In this document: piece after piece, positions 2,745 through 12,214 of the stretch
How positions within the stretch are numbered: the stretch's first letter is position 1
Layout of the letters: every line of letters begins with the position of its first letter
Origin: an uncultured bacterium
Lineage (GTDB): Bacteria > Planctomycetota > UBA1135 > UBA2386
Assembly (NCBI GenBank): GCA_938003515.1
Contig: CALKYL010000029.1
Span: forward strand, 1 to 20,014
Length of the DNA: 20,014 nt
Direction: 5' to 3'
Translations under genes and position numbers: made by a program
The notes under the pieces: generated by a model
Told to the model about the DNA's origin: nothing
Databases searched by the model: none
The model's input: only the letters and a program-made list of their open reading frames with translations

Positions 2745-3269
2745 ATGACTGCGCCCAGCAAGGTGCTCGCGACGCTCCGCGTCAACGGCGAGCCGCACGA
2801 GGTGGCGTTCTCGCCGCACAAGACGCTGCTCGAGGTGCTCCGCGAGGACCTCGATCTCACCGGCACGAAACACGGCTGCGAGCTGGGCGAGTGCGGCACG
2901 TGCTCGGTCCAGATCGACGGCACCCCGGTGCTGAGCTGCCTGGTGCTCGGCGTGGACGCCATCGGTCGCGAGGTGCGAACCGTCGAGGGCCTCGCCGGCG
3001 CGACCGACCTCGCGCCGCTGCAGCACACGATGGCCGACCTGGGCGCCGCGCAGTGTGGCTACTGCACCCCGGGCATCCTGATGGCGGCCGATGCGCTGCT
3101 GCGCGACAACGCGCGCCCGAGCCGCGAAGAGATCAAGGAGGCGTTGGCCGGCAACCTGTGCCGCTGCACGGGCTATCTGAAGATCTTCGAGGCCGTCGAG
3201 CTCGCGGCGGCCCGCATGCGCGGCGAACCGGCCGAGCCGACCGAGGAGTCGATCCATGGTTCTCGATGA
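2745..3269 (+). CDS. hcrC: 2Fe-2S subunit of a molybdenum hydroxylase, HcrC (4-hydroxybenzoyl-CoA reductase gamma) type
   Basis: This 174-residue protein is the small iron-sulfur subunit of a xanthine-oxidase-family enzyme and should shuttle electrons between the Mo-pterin site and FAD. All eight cysteine ligands are present. The plant-ferredoxin-type cluster uses C45, C50, C53 and C65 (in GCELGECGTC and LSC). The second cluster, in the four-helix domain, uses C104, C107, C139 and C141 (in QCGYC and CRC). Length is typical. It is the first gene of an operon in the order 2Fe-2S, Mo, FAD, the order I recall for hcrCAB of Thauera aromatica. The large-subunit gene begins inside its 3' end (14-base overlap), and a GAGGAG at 3242-3247 inside this gene serves that start. 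The symbol is by analogy with the FAD subunit's [4Fe-4S] signature; the substrate is not proven. Confidence 0.85.
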   Translation: MTAPSKVLATLRVNGEPHEVAFSPHKTLLEVLREDLDLTGTKHGCELGECGTCSVQIDGTPVLSCLVLGVDAIGREVRTVEGLAGATDLAPLQHTMADLGAAQCGYCTPGILMAADALLRDNARPSREEIKEALAGNLCRCTGYLKIFEAVELAAARMRGEPAEPTEESIHGSR

Positions 3270-5808
3270 CCCGGCGCGCCGCCGCGCCCGGCCCGACGCG
3301 CGCGGACGCGAGGACGCGCCGTGGCAGCACGACAAGGCGAAGGACGAACTGCGGCACATCGGCAAGCCGATCCGCAAGGTCGACGCGCGCAGCAAGGTCA
3401 GCGGGCTGACCCTGTTCGCCGACGACCTGAAGCTGCCGCGCATGCTGCACATGAAGCTCCTGCGCAGCACGATGGCACACGCCGAGATCGTCGCCATCGA
3501 CACCTCGCGCGCCGCGGCGCTGCCGGGCGTCAAGGGCGTGCTCACGGGCAAGGACATGCCGATCCCGTTCGGCATCCTGCCGGTCAGCCAGGACGAGCAC
3601 GCGCTGTGCCCCGACCGCGTGCGGTTCGTCGGCGACCCGGTCGTCGCGATCGCCGCGACCGAGGAGGAGATCGCCTGGGAGGCGTGCCGCCTCGTCGACG
3701 TCGAATACCGCGAACTGCAGACCATCGGCTCGCTGCAGGAGGCCGCGGCCACGCCGGAGCCTCGGCTGCACGACTACGGCGTGCGCGGCAACATCCACCG
3801 GCTCGAGAACCTCGAGTTCGGCGACCTCGACGACGGCTTCGCGCGCGCCGATCATGTGCGCGAGGACACCTTCTACTACGAGGGCAACACGCACCTGCCG
3901 ATGGAGCAGCACGCGACGCTCGCGCACTTCGACCGCGACGGCAAGCTGACCGTGTGGTCGTCGACGCAGACGCCGCACTACCTGCACCGGGCGCTCGCGC
4001 GCGTGCTGCACCCGCTGCCGGCGCACAAGATCCGCGTGATCGCGTGCCCGAACGGCGGCGGCTTCGGCGGCAAGAGCGACCCGTTCAACCACGAGATCTG
4101 CGCGGCGAAGATGGCGATGCACACCGGGCGGCCGGTCAAGATCGCGCTGACCCGCGAAGAGGTCTTCTGGTGCCACCGCGGCCGGCACCCGGTGCTGATG
4201 CGCAGCCGGATCGGCGTGACGAAGACCGGCCGGATCACCGCGCTCGACTTCCGGAGCTATCTCGACGGCGGCGCCTACGGCAGCTACGGCACGGCGAGCA
4301 CGTTCTACACCGGGGCGCTGCAGACGGTGACCTACGCGGTCGAGAACTACCACTTCCGCGGCGCGCGCTTCTTCACGAACAAGGCGCCGTGCGGTCCGAA
4401 GCGCGGCCACGGTACGCCGCAGCCGCGCTTCGCGCTCGAGGTGCAGCTCGACAAGGTCGCGTGCGACCTCGGCCTCGATCCGGCGCAGATGCGGCTCGAC
4501 AACCTCGCCGAGCGCGACTCGCTGACCGCGAACTTCCTGCGCATCGGCTCGATGGGGCTCGGCGAGTGCATCCGCAAGGTCGTCGCCGGCTCCGGCTGGA
4601 ACGAACGCCGCGGCAAGCGCGAGCGCACCGCCGACGGCCGCGTGCGCGGCCTCGGGCTCGCGTGTTCGAGCTATCTGTCGGGCGCCGGCCTGCCGATCTA
4701 CTGGAACGGCATGCCGCACTCCGGCGTGCAGCTGCAGCTGGACCGCTCCGGCCTCGTCACCGCGTTCTGCGGCAGCACCGACATCGGCCAGGGCAGCGAC
4801 AGCGTGCTCGGCTGGATCATCGGCGAGGTGCTCGGCATCGATCCGCTCGGCATCAAGGTCGTCACCGCCGACACCGACCTGACGCCGGTCGACCTCGGCA
4901 GCTACAGCTCGCGCGTCACGGTCATGACCGGCAACGCGGCGATGCAGGCCGCCGAGCGCGCCCGCGAGCTGCTCGCCACGGGCGCGGCGGCGAAGCTCGA
5001 CGTGCCGGCGTCGCGGCTCGTGTTCGCCGACGAACGCGTGTTCGACGCGGAGGATCCGCAGAAGGGCCTGACGTTCCAGGAGGCGATCTGCGAGACCGAG
5101 GCGCGCTTCGGCACGATCGGCACGGTCGGCAGCTACACGCCGCCGAAGTCGGCCGCGCGCTTCCGCGGCGGGGGCGTCGGGCCGAGCCCGAGCTACAGCT
5201 ATTCGGCGGCCGTCGTCGAGGTCGAGGTCGACCCCGACACCGGCGTCTACCGCGTGCCGAAGGTCTGGATGGCCCACGACATCGGCCGCGCGCTCAACGC
5301 CGCGGTCGCGATGGGACAGATCGAGGGATCGGTCTACATGGGCCTCGGCGAGGCGATGATGGAGGAGATGGCCTACCGCGACCGCACGCACAAGGGCCGC
5401 CGCATCTTCGTGCACAAGATCCCGTCGATGCTCGAGTACAAGAGCCCGAGCGCGCTCGAGATGCCCGACGTGGTCACCTACGTGATCGAGGACCCGGACA
5501 AGAACGGTCCGTTCGGCGCCAAGGAGGTCGGCCAGGGGCCGCTCCTGCCGATCATGCCGGCGGTCGCCAACGCCGTCTTCGACGCCGTCGGCGTGCGCGT
5601 CGACGAGAATCCGATCTCGTTCGAGAAGGTGTTCGCGGCGCTGCAGGCCATGAAGGACGGCAAGGAGCCGCGCTTCGGCCCGGCCAACGACGCGAGCGGC
5701 GTGCCCGACGTCGACTTCGGCGAATCGCTGCGCGTGCCGACGCCGTGGCAAGGCGGCGACGGCACGGCGACGAACGACCCCAAGCGGCACAAGAAGGCGG
5801 CCAAGTAG
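3256..5808 (+). CDS. hcrA: Molybdopterin-binding catalytic subunit of a molybdenum hydroxylase, HcrA-like
   Basis: The 850-residue protein is the Mo-pterin subunit of the xanthine oxidase family. The N-terminal hammerhead domain runs from about residue 35 (GKPIRKVDARSKVSG) to 165. The cofactor-binding part has the glycine motif GGGFGGK (268-273 region), a PCGPKRGHGTPQPRF loop (378-392) and IGQGSD (510-515). The CO-dehydrogenase active-site loop (A-Y-x-C-S-F-R) is absent, so this is not a CoxL. The GHGT-type loop resembles 4-hydroxybenzoyl-CoA reductase alpha as I recall it. At the C-terminal active-site motif the sequence is KEVGQGP (756-762), where most family members read G-V-G-E; here the position is Q760, with an extra acidic E757. 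The start at 3256 has a GAGGAG at good spacing. The tail after 800 is hydrophilic and lysine-rich. The enzyme is probably cytoplasmic: no Tat signal is visible. The substrate is unknown. Confidence 0.85.
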   Translation: MVLDDPARRRARPDARGREDAPWQHDKAKDELRHIGKPIRKVDARSKVSGLTLFADDLKLPRMLHMKLLRSTMAHAEIVAIDTSRAAALPGVKGVLTGKDMPIPFGILPVSQDEHALCPDRVRFVGDPVVAIAATEEEIAWEACRLVDVEYRELQTIGSLQEAAATPEPRLHDYGVRGNIHRLENLEFGDLDDGFARADHVREDTFYYEGNTHLPMEQHATLAHFDRDGKLTVWSSTQTPHYLHRALARVLHPLPAHKIRVIACPNGGGFGGKSDPFNHEICAAKMAMHTGRPVKIALTREEVFWCHRGRHPVLMRSRIGVTKTGRITALDFRSYLDGGAYGSYGTASTFYTGALQTVTYAVENYHFRGARFFTNKAPCGPKRGHGTPQPRFALEVQLDKVACDLGLDPAQMRLDNLAERDSLTANFLRIGSMGLGECIRKVVAGSGWNERRGKRERTADGRVRGLGLACSSYLSGAGLPIYWNGMPHSGVQLQLDRSGLVTAFCGSTDIGQGSDSVLGWIIGEVLGIDPLGIKVVTADTDLTPVDLGSYSSRVTVMTGNAAMQAAERARELLATGAAAKLDVPASRLVFADERVFDAEDPQKGLTFQEAICETEARFGTIGTVGSYTPPKSAARFRGGGVGPSPSYSYSAAVVEVEVDPDTGVYRVPKVWMAHDIGRALNAAVAMGQIEGSVYMGLGEAMMEEMAYRDRTHKGRRIFVHKIPSMLEYKSPSALEMPDVVTYVIEDPDKNGPFGAKEVGQGPLLPIMPAVANAVFDAVGVRVDENPISFEKVFAALQAMKDGKEPRFGPANDASGVPDVDFGESLRVPTPWQGGDGTATNDPKRHKKAAK

Positions 5809-5816
5809 GGAACCAC

Positions 5817-6797
5817 ATGCTCCGACTGCCCACGTTCACCTACCACCGCCCGCAGAGCGCGAGCGAGGCCGTGCGCCTCAAGCGCGAGCACGGACAGGCG
5901 GCGATGTACGTCGCCGGCGGCACCGACCTCTATCCCAACATGAAGCGGCGGCACCAGACGCCGACCGAGGTGATCTCGCTGCAGGACCTGCCCGAGCTGC
6001 ACGCCGTCGACGTGCTGCCGGACGGCCGGCTGCGCATCGGCGCGATGGTGCGTCTGTCCACGCTCGAGCACTACCCGCACCTGAAGGCCCACTACCCGGG
6101 CCTGCAGCACGCGATCCGCGAGATCTCGACGCCGCTCTTGCGCAACATGGGCACGATCGGCGGCAACCTGCTGCTCGACACCCGCTGCACCTACTACGAC
6201 CAGTCCCACGAGTGGCGCGAGTCGATCGACTTCTGCATGAAGAAGGACGGCGCGATCTGCTGGGTCGCGCCCGGGAGTCCGCGCTGCTGGGCGGTGCAGT
6301 CGAGCGACTCCGTTCCGGTCGTCTGCGCGATGGAGGCGGAGGTCGAGCTCGCGTCGCACGACGGCGCGCGCACGCTGAAGGCCGACGCGCTGTATCGCGA
6401 CGACGGCATCGAGTACCTGACCAAGCGGCCCGAGGAGCTCCTGACGACGATCACGCTGCCGGCGCCGGGCGCGTGGCGGGCGAGCTACGTCAAGTTGCGG
6501 CGGCGCGACACCTACGACTTCCCGGTGCTCGGCGTCGGGGCGTGCCTGTGGTTCGACGAGCGCGGCGTCGTCACCAAGGCGAACGTGCGCCTCGGTGGCG
6601 CCGGCAGCTACGCGATCCCGGCGACCGCGACCGAGGACCTGCTGGTCGGTGAGCCGCTGACGGACGATCGGATCGCCGAGGCGGGCAAGGCGGCGATGAA
6701 GCCTGCGCGCACGATGGACAACACCGACCTCGACGTCTACTGGCGGCGCAAGGTCGCCCCGATCTACGTGGCGCGCGCGCTGCAGGCCTGCCGGTGA
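5817..6797 (+). CDS. hcrB: FAD-binding subunit with an extra four-cysteine [4Fe-4S] loop, HcrB (4-hydroxybenzoyl-CoA reductase beta) type
   Basis: The 326-residue protein is the FAD subunit of the Mo-hydroxylase complex. FAD-binding motifs are YVAGGTDL (31-38) and NMGTIGGNLLLDTRC (110-124), and the C-terminal domain begins near 222. Between them lies an insertion of about 40 residues absent from ordinary xanthine dehydrogenases, with cysteines C124, C140, C148 and C157 (spacings 16, 8 and 9). From memory, these match the [4Fe-4S] ligands C122, C138, C146 and C155 of the Thauera aromatica beta subunit. In that enzyme the cluster lets low-potential ferredoxin electrons reach Mo so that the phenolic hydroxyl of 4-hydroxybenzoyl-CoA is removed. 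The ATG at 5817 follows the Mo-subunit stop by 8 bases, with AGGGA at 5807-5811. The stop overlaps the start of the next gene. A related reductive reaction on another substrate is equally possible. Confidence 0.85.
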   Translation: MLRLPTFTYHRPQSASEAVRLKREHGQAAMYVAGGTDLYPNMKRRHQTPTEVISLQDLPELHAVDVLPDGRLRIGAMVRLSTLEHYPHLKAHYPGLQHAIREISTPLLRNMGTIGGNLLLDTRCTYYDQSHEWRESIDFCMKKDGAICWVAPGSPRCWAVQSSDSVPVVCAMEAEVELASHDGARTLKADALYRDDGIEYLTKRPEELLTTITLPAPGAWRASYVKLRRRDTYDFPVLGVGACLWFDERGVVTKANVRLGGAGSYAIPATATEDLLVGEPLTDDRIAEAGKAAMKPARTMDNTDLDVYWRRKVAPIYVARALQACR

Positions 6798-8095: not shown

Positions 8096-10291
8096 TCAGC
8101 CCTCGACGTTCGCCTGCGCGACGAGTCCGCGCAGCACGGCGCGGGCCTCGTGGCAGTCCGCGAGGCGGTAGCGCGCCGCGGTGCGGCCGTCGCCGACGTG
8201 CACGGTGATTGCGTCGTCCGGCGCCGCGGCGAACATGTCCTCGTCCGTACGGTCGTCCCCGAAGATCACGGCGCGCGCCCCTGCGGCTTCTTCGGTCATC
8301 ACGCGCCCGACGATGTTGCCCTTGTTGACGCCCATCGGCCGGACCTCGAGCACGCGGTTGCCCGAGATCACGGACGCGCCGATCTGGCTGAGCATCTCGG
8401 TCAGGTGCAGGCGGATCTCGCTGACGAACGAGGCCGCGAACTCCGGGTCGACCTGCCGGTAGTGGAAGGCGACCGACTGCGCCTTCGTCTCGACGAGCGA
8501 GCCCGGGATCTGCGCCGCGAAGCGCCGCAGCACGCCGAGCACGCGCGGCTGCCAGTCCGTGTTGCCGAGCGGCGTCGACGACCACGTGCTCGCGCCCCGC
8601 TGCCGGGAGACCAGGCCGTGTTCGCCGTGCAGCCCGATCGGCAGCGCGCCGAACCACTTCTCCAGGAACTCGCGGGGGCGGCCGCTGACGACGTGCACGT
8701 GCAGGTCGTCGCTCGCGGCGAGTTCGCGCAGGATCTCGAGCAGCGGCTTGTCGGGCGTCGCGAGCTCGGGCCGCGGTGCGAACTCGACGAGGGTGCCGTC
8801 GTAGTCGAGGAACACGCACAGCGGCCCGCTGTCGCGAGCAGCAGACAGCTCGCGTTCCAGTTCGGCCCGCGGCTCCGGCCGGTGCGGCGCGTCGAACTCG
8901 CCGGCGGACAGGTCGTCGAGGAACGACCGCACCCACTCGTGCACGTTGCTGCTCCGGACCGCCTCGCGCATGGCGCGCATGCGACGGCGGCGTTCGTCCC
9001 GCGGCAGCGCGAGCGCGGCAGCCATCACCTCGGCCGAGCCGTCGGTGTCGTACGGGTTGACCTTGAGCGCCTCCGGCAGCACGGCCGCGACGCCCGCGAA
9101 CTCGCTGAGCACGAGCACGCCGTCGTCGTCGGTGCGCGCGGCGACGAACTCCTTGGCGACGAGGTTGAGGCCGTCACGGACCGGCGTCACCAGCATCACG
9201 TCGGCGGCGCGGTAGAGCGCGGTGACCTCGCGGGCGTCCAGGCTCGAGTTCACGTAGCGGATCGGCGTGTAGTCCGGCGTGCCGAAGCGGCCGTTGATCC
9301 GCCCGACGAGTTCGTCGACGTCGCGCTTGTGGCGCTTGTATTCGTTGACGTTGGTCCTCGAGGTCACCGCGACCTGCACGAGCTGCACGAGCGGGGCGCC
9401 GTCGCCGCGCATCACCAGCAGCTTCTCGAACGCGGCGAGCCGGCGCGGCAACCCCTTCGTGTAGTCGAGTCGATCGATGCCGAGCATCACCTTGGCCGGC
9501 GCGGTCTGCGCGCGCAGCGCCGTGGCCTCCCGCTGCACGGCGGGGTCGTTCGCGTGGCGTTCGAACGCGTCGACGTCGATGCCCATCGGCATCGCGGTGA
9601 GCCGGGCGACGCGGTCACCGAGGTCGACCCGGTCGATCGCCACCTCCATGCCGAGCGTCCGCAGCAGCGCCGACGCGAAGTGGCGCAGGTAGCTCAGCGT
9701 GTGGAAGCCGATCAAGTCGGCGCCCAGGACGCCGCGCAGCAGGTCCGCGCGCCACGGCAGCACGCGGAAGACCTCCGACGACGGGAAGGGGATGTGCAGG
9801 AAGTAACCGATGCGCGCGTCGGGCAGGCGCTCCCGCAGCATCTGCGGCAGCAGCATCAGGTGGAAGTCGTGCACCCAGATCTTGTCGCCCGGGCGCCAGC
9901 GGCTCGCGACCTCGTCGGCGAAGCGCTCGTTGATCGCGCGGTAGGCCTTCCAGTCGGCGGACTCGGTCGGCAGGCGGTCGATCAGGTAGTGGAAGGTCGG
10001 CCACAGCACGCCGTTGCTGAACTGGTTGTAGTAGCCCTCGACCTCTTCCTTGCTCAGCTCGATCGGCACGAACCGGCCGTCGCGCAGCAGCTCGAGGGCC
10101 CGCTTGCGGGCGGGCGCGCGCATGCCCGGCATCGCGCCGGCCCAACCGAACCAGAGCCCGTCGCCCGCGTCGTGCGGGCCTCGCAGCCCCGTCGCGAGCC
10201 CTCCGGTGTTGTGCGCGATGCGCGGTCCCTCGGGCGTGATCTCGACGGCGAGCGGCAGGCGGTTGGCGACGATCAGGAGCCTTCCGTTCAT
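8096..10291 (-). CDS. otsAB: Fused trehalose-6-phosphate synthase / trehalose-6-phosphate phosphatase (OtsA-OtsB)
   Basis: The 731-residue protein joins both steps of trehalose synthesis. Residues 1-465 are a GT20 synthase that joins UDP-glucose (or another NDP-glucose) to glucose-6-phosphate: ANRLP (9-13), GG loop (30-31), [11 protein letters not shown] (139-149), [12 protein letters not shown] (164-175), [10 protein letters not shown] (271-280, R274 and K279 as phosphate ligands) and [10 protein letters not shown] (373-382). Residues about 488-725 are a HAD phosphatase: DYDGT (496-500, nucleophile D496), VSGRP (535-539), GVNKG (654-658) and [10 protein letters not shown] (678-687). All key residues appear intact, so both halves should be active in the cytoplasm. 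The ATG overlaps the GH15 stop as ATGA. An in-frame GTG at 10297, with TATCGT 6 bases before it, is an alternative start. Such fusions are well known in eukaryotes and occur in some bacteria. Trehalose likely serves as a stress protectant. Confidence 0.92.
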
Positions 10292-12090
10292 GTCCACGCA
10301 CGTACGATACCGTCGCGCGCGGCCAAAAGGTCCCCGATCGTGGCGGCGGCGTTGATCAGCCCCACGTGCGTGTACGCCTGGGGAAAGTTGCCGAGCAGCT
10401 CGCCGGTCGACGGATCGACGTCTTCGGAGAACAAGCCGAGGGGATTCGCGTGGGCGAGCATGCGGTCGAAGATCTCGATCGCCTCCTCGAGTCGCCCGGC
10501 GAGCGCGAGCGCCTCCGCCCACCAGAAGCTGCAGATCGTGAACCCGCTGGTCGTCTCGCCGAAGTCGTCGCGGTTGCGGTAGCGCAGCATGAAGCCACGA
10601 TCCACGAGCTCGTTGTCGTAGGCGTCCAGAGTGCGCAGGAAGCGCGGGTCCTTGGCGTCGATCAGCCCGATCGAGGGCAGGAGCAAGTTCGCGGCGTCGG
10701 CGTCGCCGCCGTCGAGCGCCTGGGTGAAGTAGCCGCGGGTGCGGCAGAAGCCGCGGTCGAGGATCTCCTGCTGCTCCCGATCGGCGATCGCGTCCCATCG
10801 GTCCGCCAGGTCGTCGCGGCCGTAGCGCCGCGCGAGCCGCGCGCCGCGCTGGATCGCGGCCCAGCACATGGCCCTCGAGAACGTGTGGTTCTTCATGATC
10901 GTGCGGTACTCCCAGATGCCGGTGTCCGGCGTCGGGGCCGCGGCGATCGCCTCTTCGACGAGGCGCTCCACGAGGGGCATGAGCTGCTCCGGGGAGTCGT
11001 GCACCAGCCGCGGGTCGGCGAGCAGCGCGTCGATGCTGAGCAGCAGCTCGCCCATCAGGTCGTTCTGCTTCTGCCGGTAGGCGGCGTTGCCGACGCGCAC
11101 GGGGCCGTTGCCGCGGAAGCCCGCGAGGTGTGGCAGGGTGATCTCGTCGAGCGCGCGACGCCCGTCGAGGCCGTACATCGGCTGAAGCGGCCCCGACTGG
11201 GCGACGTCGAAGAGGAAGCCGAGGAAGGCCTCTCCTTCGTCGATCTGGCTCAGACGCCGCAGCGCCTCGATGACGAACGCGGCGTCGCGCAGCCAGCAGT
11301 AGCGGTAGTCCCAGGTGCGCTCGGTGCCCATCGCCTCCGGGATGCTGGTGGTGGTCGCTGCGATGATCGCGCCCGTGTCGAGGTGTGCGTGCAGCTTGAG
11401 GCACAGCGCGGAGCGCAGCACCTCCTGCTGCCGGAAGGGCGGCAGCGCGCACGAGCGCGCCCACTGCCGCCAGCCTCCGACGGTCATCTGCAGCGCGCGC
11501 ATGACGCTGGCGAGGTCGGGACGCTGGCTGCGTCCGCCGAGCGCGAGCACCTGGTAGACGGGCTCGCGCAGCGCGAACGGCTGGCCCCCGAGCACGAACG
11601 GCACCGGCGCGTTCGTGATCAAACGCAGCCGCGTAGGCCCTCCGACGGTCTCGACGCCTTCGTCGGTCGGCTGCAGCGCGACGCTGGCGCGGCCGTAGTC
11701 GGGCCGCGGGTCGAAGCGCACCCGCACGCGCGGCTCGCCGTAGAGCGGCCGCATCAGCCGCACGACTTCGTACGGGGCGCTCACGTCGAGGCCGGTCGGG
11801 ATCCGGGGCGCGAAGTCGATCACCTCCCACGCGCTGTCGCGGTGCTCGAAGACGCCGCGCAACACGTTGGTGTTGCGCTCGTAGGCGAGCTGTCCGACGA
11901 CCGGGCCGTCGGGGCCCTCGATACGCCAGCAGCCGCCGTGCGCTTCGTCGAGCAGGCTGCCGAACACCGACGGCGAGTCCCAGCTGGGCAGGCACAGCCA
12001 CTCGACGCCGCTGTCCGGGGCCACGAGTGCGAGCACCCGGCCGTTGCCGATGACGCCGTGGTCGAGCCGCTTGGGAGGGGAAGGGGACAT
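10288..12090 (-). CDS. Glycoside hydrolase family 15 protein (glucoamylase / trehalase type)
   Basis: The 600-residue protein (from ATG at 12090) has an N-terminal beta-sandwich domain starting DHGVIGNGRVLALV with LCLPSWDSPSVFGSLLD (32-48), then an (alpha/alpha)6 barrel from about 215. Barrel signatures include GTERTWDYRYCWLRDA (255-270), DTGIWEYR (389-396, with E394 as likely general acid) and LFSEDVDPSTGELLGNFPQ (553-571, with E556 as likely general base). This subtype includes actinobacterial trehalases and glucodextranase-like enzymes that release glucose from alpha-glucosides. No signal peptide is visible, so it is probably cytoplasmic. Overlap with otsAB by ATGA suggests joint regulation of trehalose or alpha-glucan turnover. 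An ATG at 12129 would add 13 residues rich in arginine. Neither start has a clear ribosome binding site; the shorter form matches the family's usual N terminus. Confidence 0.88.
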   Translation of the reverse strand: MSPSPPKRLDHGVIGNGRVLALVAPDSGVEWLCLPSWDSPSVFGSLLDEAHGGCWRIEGPDGPVVGQLAYERNTNVLRGVFEHRDSAWEVIDFAPRIPTGLDVSAPYEVVRLMRPLYGEPRVRVRFDPRPDYGRASVALQPTDEGVETVGGPTRLRLITNAPVPFVLGGQPFALREPVYQVLALGGRSQRPDLASVMRALQMTVGGWRQWARSCALPPFRQQEVLRSALCLKLHAHLDTGAIIAATTTSIPEAMGTERTWDYRYCWLRDAAFVIEALRRLSQIDEGEAFLGFLFDVAQSGPLQPMYGLDGRRALDEITLPHLAGFRGNGPVRVGNAAYRQKQNDLMGELLLSIDALLADPRLVHDSPEQLMPLVERLVEEAIAAAPTPDTGIWEYRTIMKNHTFSRAMCWAAIQRGARLARRYGRDDLADRWDAIADREQQEILDRGFCRTRGYFTQALDGGDADAANLLLPSIGLIDAKDPRFLRTLDAYDNELVDRGFMLRYRNRDDFGETTSGFTICSFWWAEALALAGRLEEAIEIFDRMLAHANPLGLFSEDVDPSTGELLGNFPQAYTHVGLINAAATIGDLLAARDGIVRAWT

Positions 12091-12214
12091 GGTCCGGCGA
12101 CGCCGCGGCGCCTCGGACCTCTTCGGCATTCGCGGCCGATCGCCATGACCTGTCGGGGCGCCCGGCGGCTCGCCTCCGCTCGCATCCGCGGGGTCAGGCC
12201 GCCATCATGCCGAC
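12091..12214. promoter_or_regulatory. Divergent intergenic region between GH15 and SpoU genes
   Basis: This 124-base gap must hold promoters for both directions. On the plus strand CATCAT (12203-12208) ends 6 bases before the ATG at 12215 and resembles a -10 box. No convincing -35 element was found. No clear minus-strand promoter or operator was found. Confidence 0.3.

Follow-up and report, generated by a model that had tools for sequence, protein, structure and literature searches.

A widespread clade of 4-hydroxybenzoyl-CoA reductase-like molybdoenzymes with glutamine in place of the catalytic glutamate and a genomic link to benzoyl-CoA dearomatisation

The window, the whole stretch of 20,014 nucleotides of DNA from an uncultured member of the Planctomycetota that was analysed here, contains an operon whose predicted product is a Mo/FAD/Fe-S enzyme; within the xanthine oxidase family it belongs to a separate clade, widespread among bacteria, of the 4-hydroxybenzoyl-CoA reductase (HCR) branch. 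With a probability of roughly one half, we read this enzyme as reductive and HCR-like, one that would supply benzoyl-CoA to a dearomatising pathway by removing the hydroxyl group from hydroxybenzoyl-CoA or a close analogue. Our analyses revealed conserved ligands of an iron-sulfur cluster, the separate clade, a glutamate-to-glutamine change at the catalytic position and a genomic link to the Box and benzoyl-CoA reductase (BCR) genes in several phyla.

The operon is arranged in the order Fe-S, molybdenum and FAD subunit (gamma-alpha-beta), and its products carry the xanthine oxidase family domains MoCoBD_1, MoCoBD_2, Ald_Xan_dh_C, FAD_binding_5 and Fer2_2 (Pfam). The initial annotation had equated this arrangement with hcrCAB, the gene order of HCR in Thauera aromatica, and the claim was borne out: judged by gene ends, the order was kept in 72 of the 73 sequences in which all three genes were found (the window and 72 of 80 loci). 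At one locus (L072), a single frame contains both alpha and beta.

Table 1. Features of the operon in the window
Feature	Position	Strand	Basis or remark
Gamma subunit, two [2Fe-2S] domains, HcrC-like	2745..3269	+	Pfam Fer2 and Fer2_2
Alpha subunit, molybdopterin-binding, catalytic, HcrA-like	3256..5808	+	Conserved from ~3331; start codon uncertain
Motif GAKEVGQG in alpha	5515..5538	+	Gap-free motif alignment
CAG codon, Gln in place of the catalytic Glu (HcrA Glu726)	5533-5535	+	Codon position
Beta subunit (FAD subunit) with extra cysteine loop, HcrB-like, 326 aa	5817..6797	+	
Predicted [4Fe-4S] loop, C124-x15-C140-x7-C148-x8-C157	6186..6287	+	1rm6_B alignment, conservation

The four cysteines of the FAD subunit had been likened to the [4Fe-4S] ligands of the Thauera HCR beta subunit. 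Alignment with 1RM6 chain B (E 5.1e-53) placed all four (codons starting at 6186 for C124, 6234 for C140, 6258 for C148 and 6285 for C157) on those ligands, with spacings of 16, 8 and 9 in both proteins and no gaps between the cysteines. The exact pattern C-x15-C-x7-C-x8-C was present in 79 of the 81 subunits compared, counting that of the window, and the spacing is thus not due to chance; the other two (L002 and L016) keep the four cysteines with one additional residue between the second and the third. Among the closest proteins, the best 120 listed comprised 102 with the exact loop pattern and 18 with a one-residue extension. As a marker of HCR the loop was rejected, because PaoB of Escherichia coli and its relatives also have a four-cysteine loop, of different spacing. 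The statement that the loop identifies an HCR-like enzyme therefore holds for the kinship, the alpha tree uniting the window clade and HCR in one clade, but not for the loop as the identifying feature. In structure models, the predicted alpha and beta folds matched HCR best (38% and 33% identity, respectively, in structural alignments), but the loop was modelled with low confidence (pLDDT about 55) and without cofactor, so the models back the fold and are no proof of the cluster.

At the catalytic position, HcrA Glu726, which we take to be the family's catalytic residue, lies in the motif GAKEASEG. The corresponding motif of the window alpha subunit is GAKEVGQG, and the conserved glutamate of the xanthine oxidase family is absent from this protein, replaced by glutamine. 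Among 107 aligned alpha subunits, Q was found in 80 and E in 26, with one (L072) unreadable; all 80 readable members of the window clade have glutamine, and all 26 readable rows outside it have glutamate. The Q rows group together (support 99), and a tree built without the motif columns requires a single change. Wider searches gave the same division. With the alpha subunit of L037 (Chloroflexota), the deepest branch of the window type in a 59-row alpha tree, as query, 119 of the best 120 matches listed had Q and one had no motif match. Likewise, 97 of 101 ORFs scoring at least 900 bits against the window alpha had Q and four lacked a motif match, while E was present in 120 of the 120 best matches listed for the alpha subunit of a sister-group locus (L127). 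The column of HcrA residue 326 is tyrosine in 50 of the 59 rows (Tyr326 presumably lies in the HCR pocket), and the conserved glutamate of the family aligns at Glu726. HCR, a reductase, keeps its glutamate, and loss of this residue is therefore not what makes an enzyme reductive. In the literature searched (titles and abstract starts, with partial coverage of subscription papers), we found no description of the clade or of a natural glutamine at this site, nor of a link to box genes in Planctomycetota. A natural clade with exactly this swap would offer a direct test of the role of the residue in the reductive direction.

The operon could simply encode an ordinary 4-hydroxybenzoyl-CoA reductase from another phylum. 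Apart from the shared loop and gene order, sequence comparison gave HCR as the closest relative of solved structure for alpha and beta, the latter through 1RM6 chain B, while for gamma 1rm6_C (154.3 bits) and 5y6q_A (152.8 bits) came out in a near tie. No beta subunit over the HCR cut-off was found in 294 Planctomycetota genomes, which leaves the slot free there, and two betaproteobacterial genomes with the window type (G012 and G013) have benzoyl-CoA reductase C (BcrC) and benzoate-CoA ligase over cut-off with no HcrB over cut-off. We nevertheless regard this explanation as unlikely, if far from negligible. All three subunits missed the NCBIfam HCR equivalogs, scoring 174 bits against a cut-off of 257.8 (TIGR03193), 778.9 against 994.55 (TIGR03194) and 247.1 against 404.55 (TIGR03195). 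In the alpha tree (59 rows), the window clade (35 rows, support 99) is distinct from HCR (5 rows, 100); together with two planctomycetotal groups, PlaB-a and PlaB-b, they form one clade of 48 rows (100), separate from PaoABC and from the sampled XDH-type rows. The beta tree, computed without the loop columns, again separated the window clade (99) from HCR (99). Both were quick trees with SH-aLRT values in place of bootstrap, some long outgroup branches and a small sample of hydroxylases; on their evidence, membership in HCR itself does not stand. The glutamine at the Glu726 position also argues against an ordinary HCR, as does the coexistence, in two Betaproteobacteria (G009 and G010), of the window type with a beta subunit over the HCR cut-off. 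In those two genomes 4-hydroxybenzoyl-CoA is therefore probably not the substrate of the window-type enzyme, and judged from gene content it is probably the less likely isomer wherever HCR is also present.

The genomic partners of the enzyme were sought with the model of the benzoyl-CoA epoxidase BoxB (TIGR03225) and with BCR models, in searches whose first pass scored some candidates per genome only. Of 42 genomes with an HCR-like enzyme, 27 have a BoxB above the cut-off, as against 0 of 14 control genomes. Among the matches listed, eighteen loci encode beta subunits 76-82% identical to that of the window, and all seven close relatives searched from this range (G001-G005, G368 and G438) have BoxB, while none of the seven gave a match to BcrC. 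BoxB was also found in the four Betaproteobacteria mentioned above (G009, G010, G012 and G013) and in an Acidimicrobiia genome (G015).

The 294 Planctomycetota genomes gave a beta match at E 1e-50 in 100 cases, 69 of them with at least 45% identity, a stand-in for the clade that was checked by trees for the fetched loci only. BoxB was over cut-off in 47 of the 69 genomes with the window type versus 41 of the 225 without it (Fisher p 2.6e-14), and at E 1e-60 either BoxB or BcrC was matched in 62 of 69 versus 63 of 225; these statistics ignore kinship, genomes may be incomplete, and the Box link of the window rests on its relatives' genomes. For any HCR-like beta subunit, the corresponding figures were 112 of 124 genomes versus 13 of 170. 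A rough control, drawn with a CO dehydrogenase model that matched 104 genomes (mostly through HCR-like alphas again), left 21 genomes with another xanthine oxidase-type alpha subunit and no HCR-like beta, three of which have BoxB or BcrC. Class I BCR as the general partner was rejected: it was over cut-off in 18 of 69 versus 29 of 225 genomes (p 0.014), a modest excess against the stronger BoxB link, and in none of the seven close relatives. A BcrC-like gene was found in 13 of the 20 genomes that have the window type and lack a BoxB match.

Other phyla extend this distribution. A second set comprised 26 genomes. Of its 11 Acidobacteriota and Pseudomonadota, ten have BoxB above the cut-off (L049, L050, L055, L057, L061, L066, L069, L077, L079 and L080), and the remaining one (L075) has BcrC over cut-off, not BoxB. 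Gemmatimonadota differ: BoxB was found in 0 of 12 and a divergent BcrC in 4 of 12 genomes of the second set, and the four of the first set (G006, G007, G008 and G011) had no BoxB over cut-off, with a divergent BcrC in G007 and G011. Gemmatimonadota with the window type thus totalled 0 of 16 with BoxB over cut-off, 6 of 16 with a divergent BcrC and 10 of 16 with neither. Neither gene was detected in 2 of 2 Chloroflexota, an Acidobacteria genome (G016), L038/G398 and 7 of the 69 Planctomycetota genomes with the window type. Such genomes either use another dearomatase or are incomplete, or the function is wider.

Two side observations concern these dearomatase genes. Divergent class I BCR-like clusters, with BcrC below cut-off, occur in Planctomycetota and Gemmatimonadota (L204-L209, L211 and L220-L223) and may represent another subtype. 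Furthermore, in the Betaproteobacteria with the window-type enzyme, there are two neighbouring BoxB paralogues of about 900 and 750 bits (G009:C18, locus L187; G012:C58, locus L186; G010:C18; G013:C1), the copy of about 750 bits being in the score range of planctomycetotal BoxB.

The association is also physical in some genomes. In nine genomes (L184 and L212-L219), which form one lineage with alpha subunits 72-98% identical, the operon is divergent to boxC-boxB, with the outermost ORF ends 0.26 to 0.67 kb apart. At L184, BoxB scored 705.6 bits against a cut-off of 499.1 and BoxC slightly under its own (689.3 against 712.3), and a panD gene lies in between. A further locus, L185, is separate from those nine (63-65% identity to them) and carries on one strand the operon, a TetR-type gene and, further on, beta-oxidation-type genes and a BoxB truncated where the contig stops (486.4 against 499.1 bits). 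Besides BoxB, the genes further on resemble those for 3-hydroxyacyl-CoA dehydrogenase, 3-oxoadipyl-CoA thiolase, aldehyde dehydrogenase and enoyl-CoA hydratase, names that are best hits under their own cut-offs, save for a general acyltransferase model. None of these ten loci (L184, L185 and L212-L219) gave a benzoate-CoA-ligase-like match; in G009 and G010, a benzoate-CoA ligase gene and the beta gene are about 11 and 40 kb apart, respectively. On one 17-kb contig (L160, G447:C547), a nosZ-D-Y-L-like set is flanked by a bcr cluster and a window-type beta gene.

BoxAB forms an epoxide that could rearrange to hydroxybenzoyl-CoA, and the divergent boxCB genes, together with the presence of BoxB and the lack of a BcrC match in all seven close relatives searched, would suit a repair enzyme of the box pathway that reduces such a dead-end product back to benzoyl-CoA. 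We give this idea a low probability, as BcrC-like genes accompany the window type in those 13 of 20 BoxB-lacking genomes, where no epoxide is made.

The window itself was less informative. As first annotated, no benzoyl-CoA pathway, CoA ligase or separate ferredoxin gene was found among the 18 ORFs scanned with Pfam. Its neighbouring genes were rejected as a clue to the pathway, their Pfam names being those of housekeeping and sugar genes; in one such region (8099-12129, reverse strand), a trehalose-phosphate synthase/phosphatase fusion is next to a GH15 trehalase-like gene. Clustering of the ORFs of 81 sequences revealed, among the 45 largest clusters, no partner gene common to the closest Planctomycetota loci; they consisted of the operon itself, frames antisense to it, genes in synteny among Gemmatimonadota and, from eight loci, a TetR gene. 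This TetR gene is found upstream of the operon, immediately beside it in six loci and about 1.9 kb away in two (L050 and L057), and relatives of it occur within about 3-6 kb of the divergent bcr genes in two Gemmatimonadota stretches (L204 and L205).

An oxidative enzyme, hydroxylase or aldehyde oxidase, with an incidental [4Fe-4S] cluster like that of PaoABC is a poor candidate. PaoB and its relatives, which share the four-cysteine loop, work oxidatively, and many lineages of the window clade are aerobic. However, the Pao loop is spaced differently and Pao forms a separate clade, and the genomic link to benzoyl-CoA genes also argues against an oxidative enzyme. So does the swap itself: according to PMC2671166, the E1265Q variant of mouse AOX1, altered at the base of the active site, showed no activity on any substrate tested, although loaded with 60% Moco and 83% Fe (70% and 90% in the wild type). 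PMC10420851 likewise describes the conserved glutamate (bovine Glu1261) as activating the labile oxygen and as essential for xanthine oxidase-type catalysis. By analogy, glutamine at this position should cripple base-assisted hydroxylation.

Hydratase-type chemistry, by comparison, may not need the base. AtcABC is described as a molybdoenzyme of the xanthine oxidase family acting on 1-testosterone by hydration and dehydrogenation (PMC5554518) and MhyADH as a hydratase and alcohol dehydrogenase (PMC4052635), a double activity questioned in the very title of the latter report. Both are likened to the window enzyme by their descriptions, and a link with Box as well as BCR suggests a step before ring opening; we consider it distinctly improbable that the enzyme is a hydratase or alcohol dehydrogenase acting on a cyclic enone or acyl-CoA. 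The base is gone, as would be expected if catalysis had been lost and an electron carrier or regulator remained, but the other motifs and the cluster ligands are conserved over deep divergence and the three subunits are kept together, which makes such a loss extremely improbable.

The preferred reading remains a reductive, benzoyl-CoA-forming dehydroxylase. The link to two chemically unrelated dearomatases points to a step that forms the substrate common to both, benzoyl-CoA; since reductive dehydroxylation by HCR is proven chemistry in this branch, a hydroxybenzoyl-CoA reductase-like reaction is favoured. We infer the direction, substrate, electron path and effect of the glutamine as follows. 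Electrons would pass from the [4Fe-4S] cluster through FAD and the two [2Fe-2S] clusters to molybdenum, as in HCR, and hydroxybenzoyl-CoA or a close analogue would be reductively dehydroxylated to benzoyl-CoA. The product would be consumed by the oxygen-dependent Box pathway in the close relatives of the window and by class I benzoyl-CoA reductase in others. Glutamine at the site of the base would commit the enzyme to a reaction without that base; it may keep the Mo-bound oxygen from being activated to attack the ring, and benzoyl-CoA would thereby stay unhydroxylated in an oxygen-respiring cell. HCR does without this proposed safeguard.

If so, the BoxB link suggests that oxygen-using bacteria feed benzoyl-CoA into their metabolism through a reduction usually considered anaerobic. 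The 2- and 3-hydroxybenzoyl-CoA reductases are reported activities without known genes. It is conceivable, although we lean somewhat against it, that this multi-phylum clade with its fixed glutamine is a one-way reductase of both aerobic and anaerobic benzoyl-CoA metabolism that provides the orphan gene for 2- or 3-hydroxybenzoyl-CoA dehydroxylation or a repair enzyme for box by-products. The listed proteins bear names such as '4-hydroxybenzoyl-CoA reductase', 'FAD binding domain-containing protein' and 'xanthine dehydrogenase family protein' at their sources, and our results point to a function for many genes that now carry the first of these. One metagenome-assembled record titled Klebsiella pneumoniae (L076) bears a window-type FAD subunit, and the label looks wrong for that sequence. 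The best places on plasmids were all below 60% identity, for beta (789 records) and for alpha (1100 records).

Among known systems, HcrABC of Thauera aromatica (PDB 1RM6) resembles the window enzyme in its subunits, its 16/8/9 loop and Tyr326, and differs in keeping Glu726 and in belonging to a separate clade, the window proteins lying below the NCBI equivalog cut-offs. PaoABC of E. coli belongs to the same family and shares the presence of a loop in the FAD subunit, but differs in loop spacing and clade and in having kept the glutamate. According to PMC12771579, the urolithin C dehydroxylase Ucdh of Enterocloster bolteae is a reductive phenol dehydroxylase of the xanthine oxidase family, the second reductive dehydroxylase in it, with HCR as its closest characterised relative; likened here by description, it differs in its origin (gut Clostridia), its CoA-free substrate and the cofactors named (FAD and two 2Fe-2S clusters).

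The PlaB-a and PlaB-b groups of Planctomycetota (for example L120 and L127) have the same loop pattern as the window, but keep the glutamate in eight aligned rows, as in the L127 matches described above. HCR-like matches below 45% identity, which include the L119-L129 groups, come from 31 genomes, 28 of which have BoxB or a BcrC-like gene. L119-L129 themselves are further HCR-like groups of Planctomycetota, with the loop as in the window and the normal glutamate.
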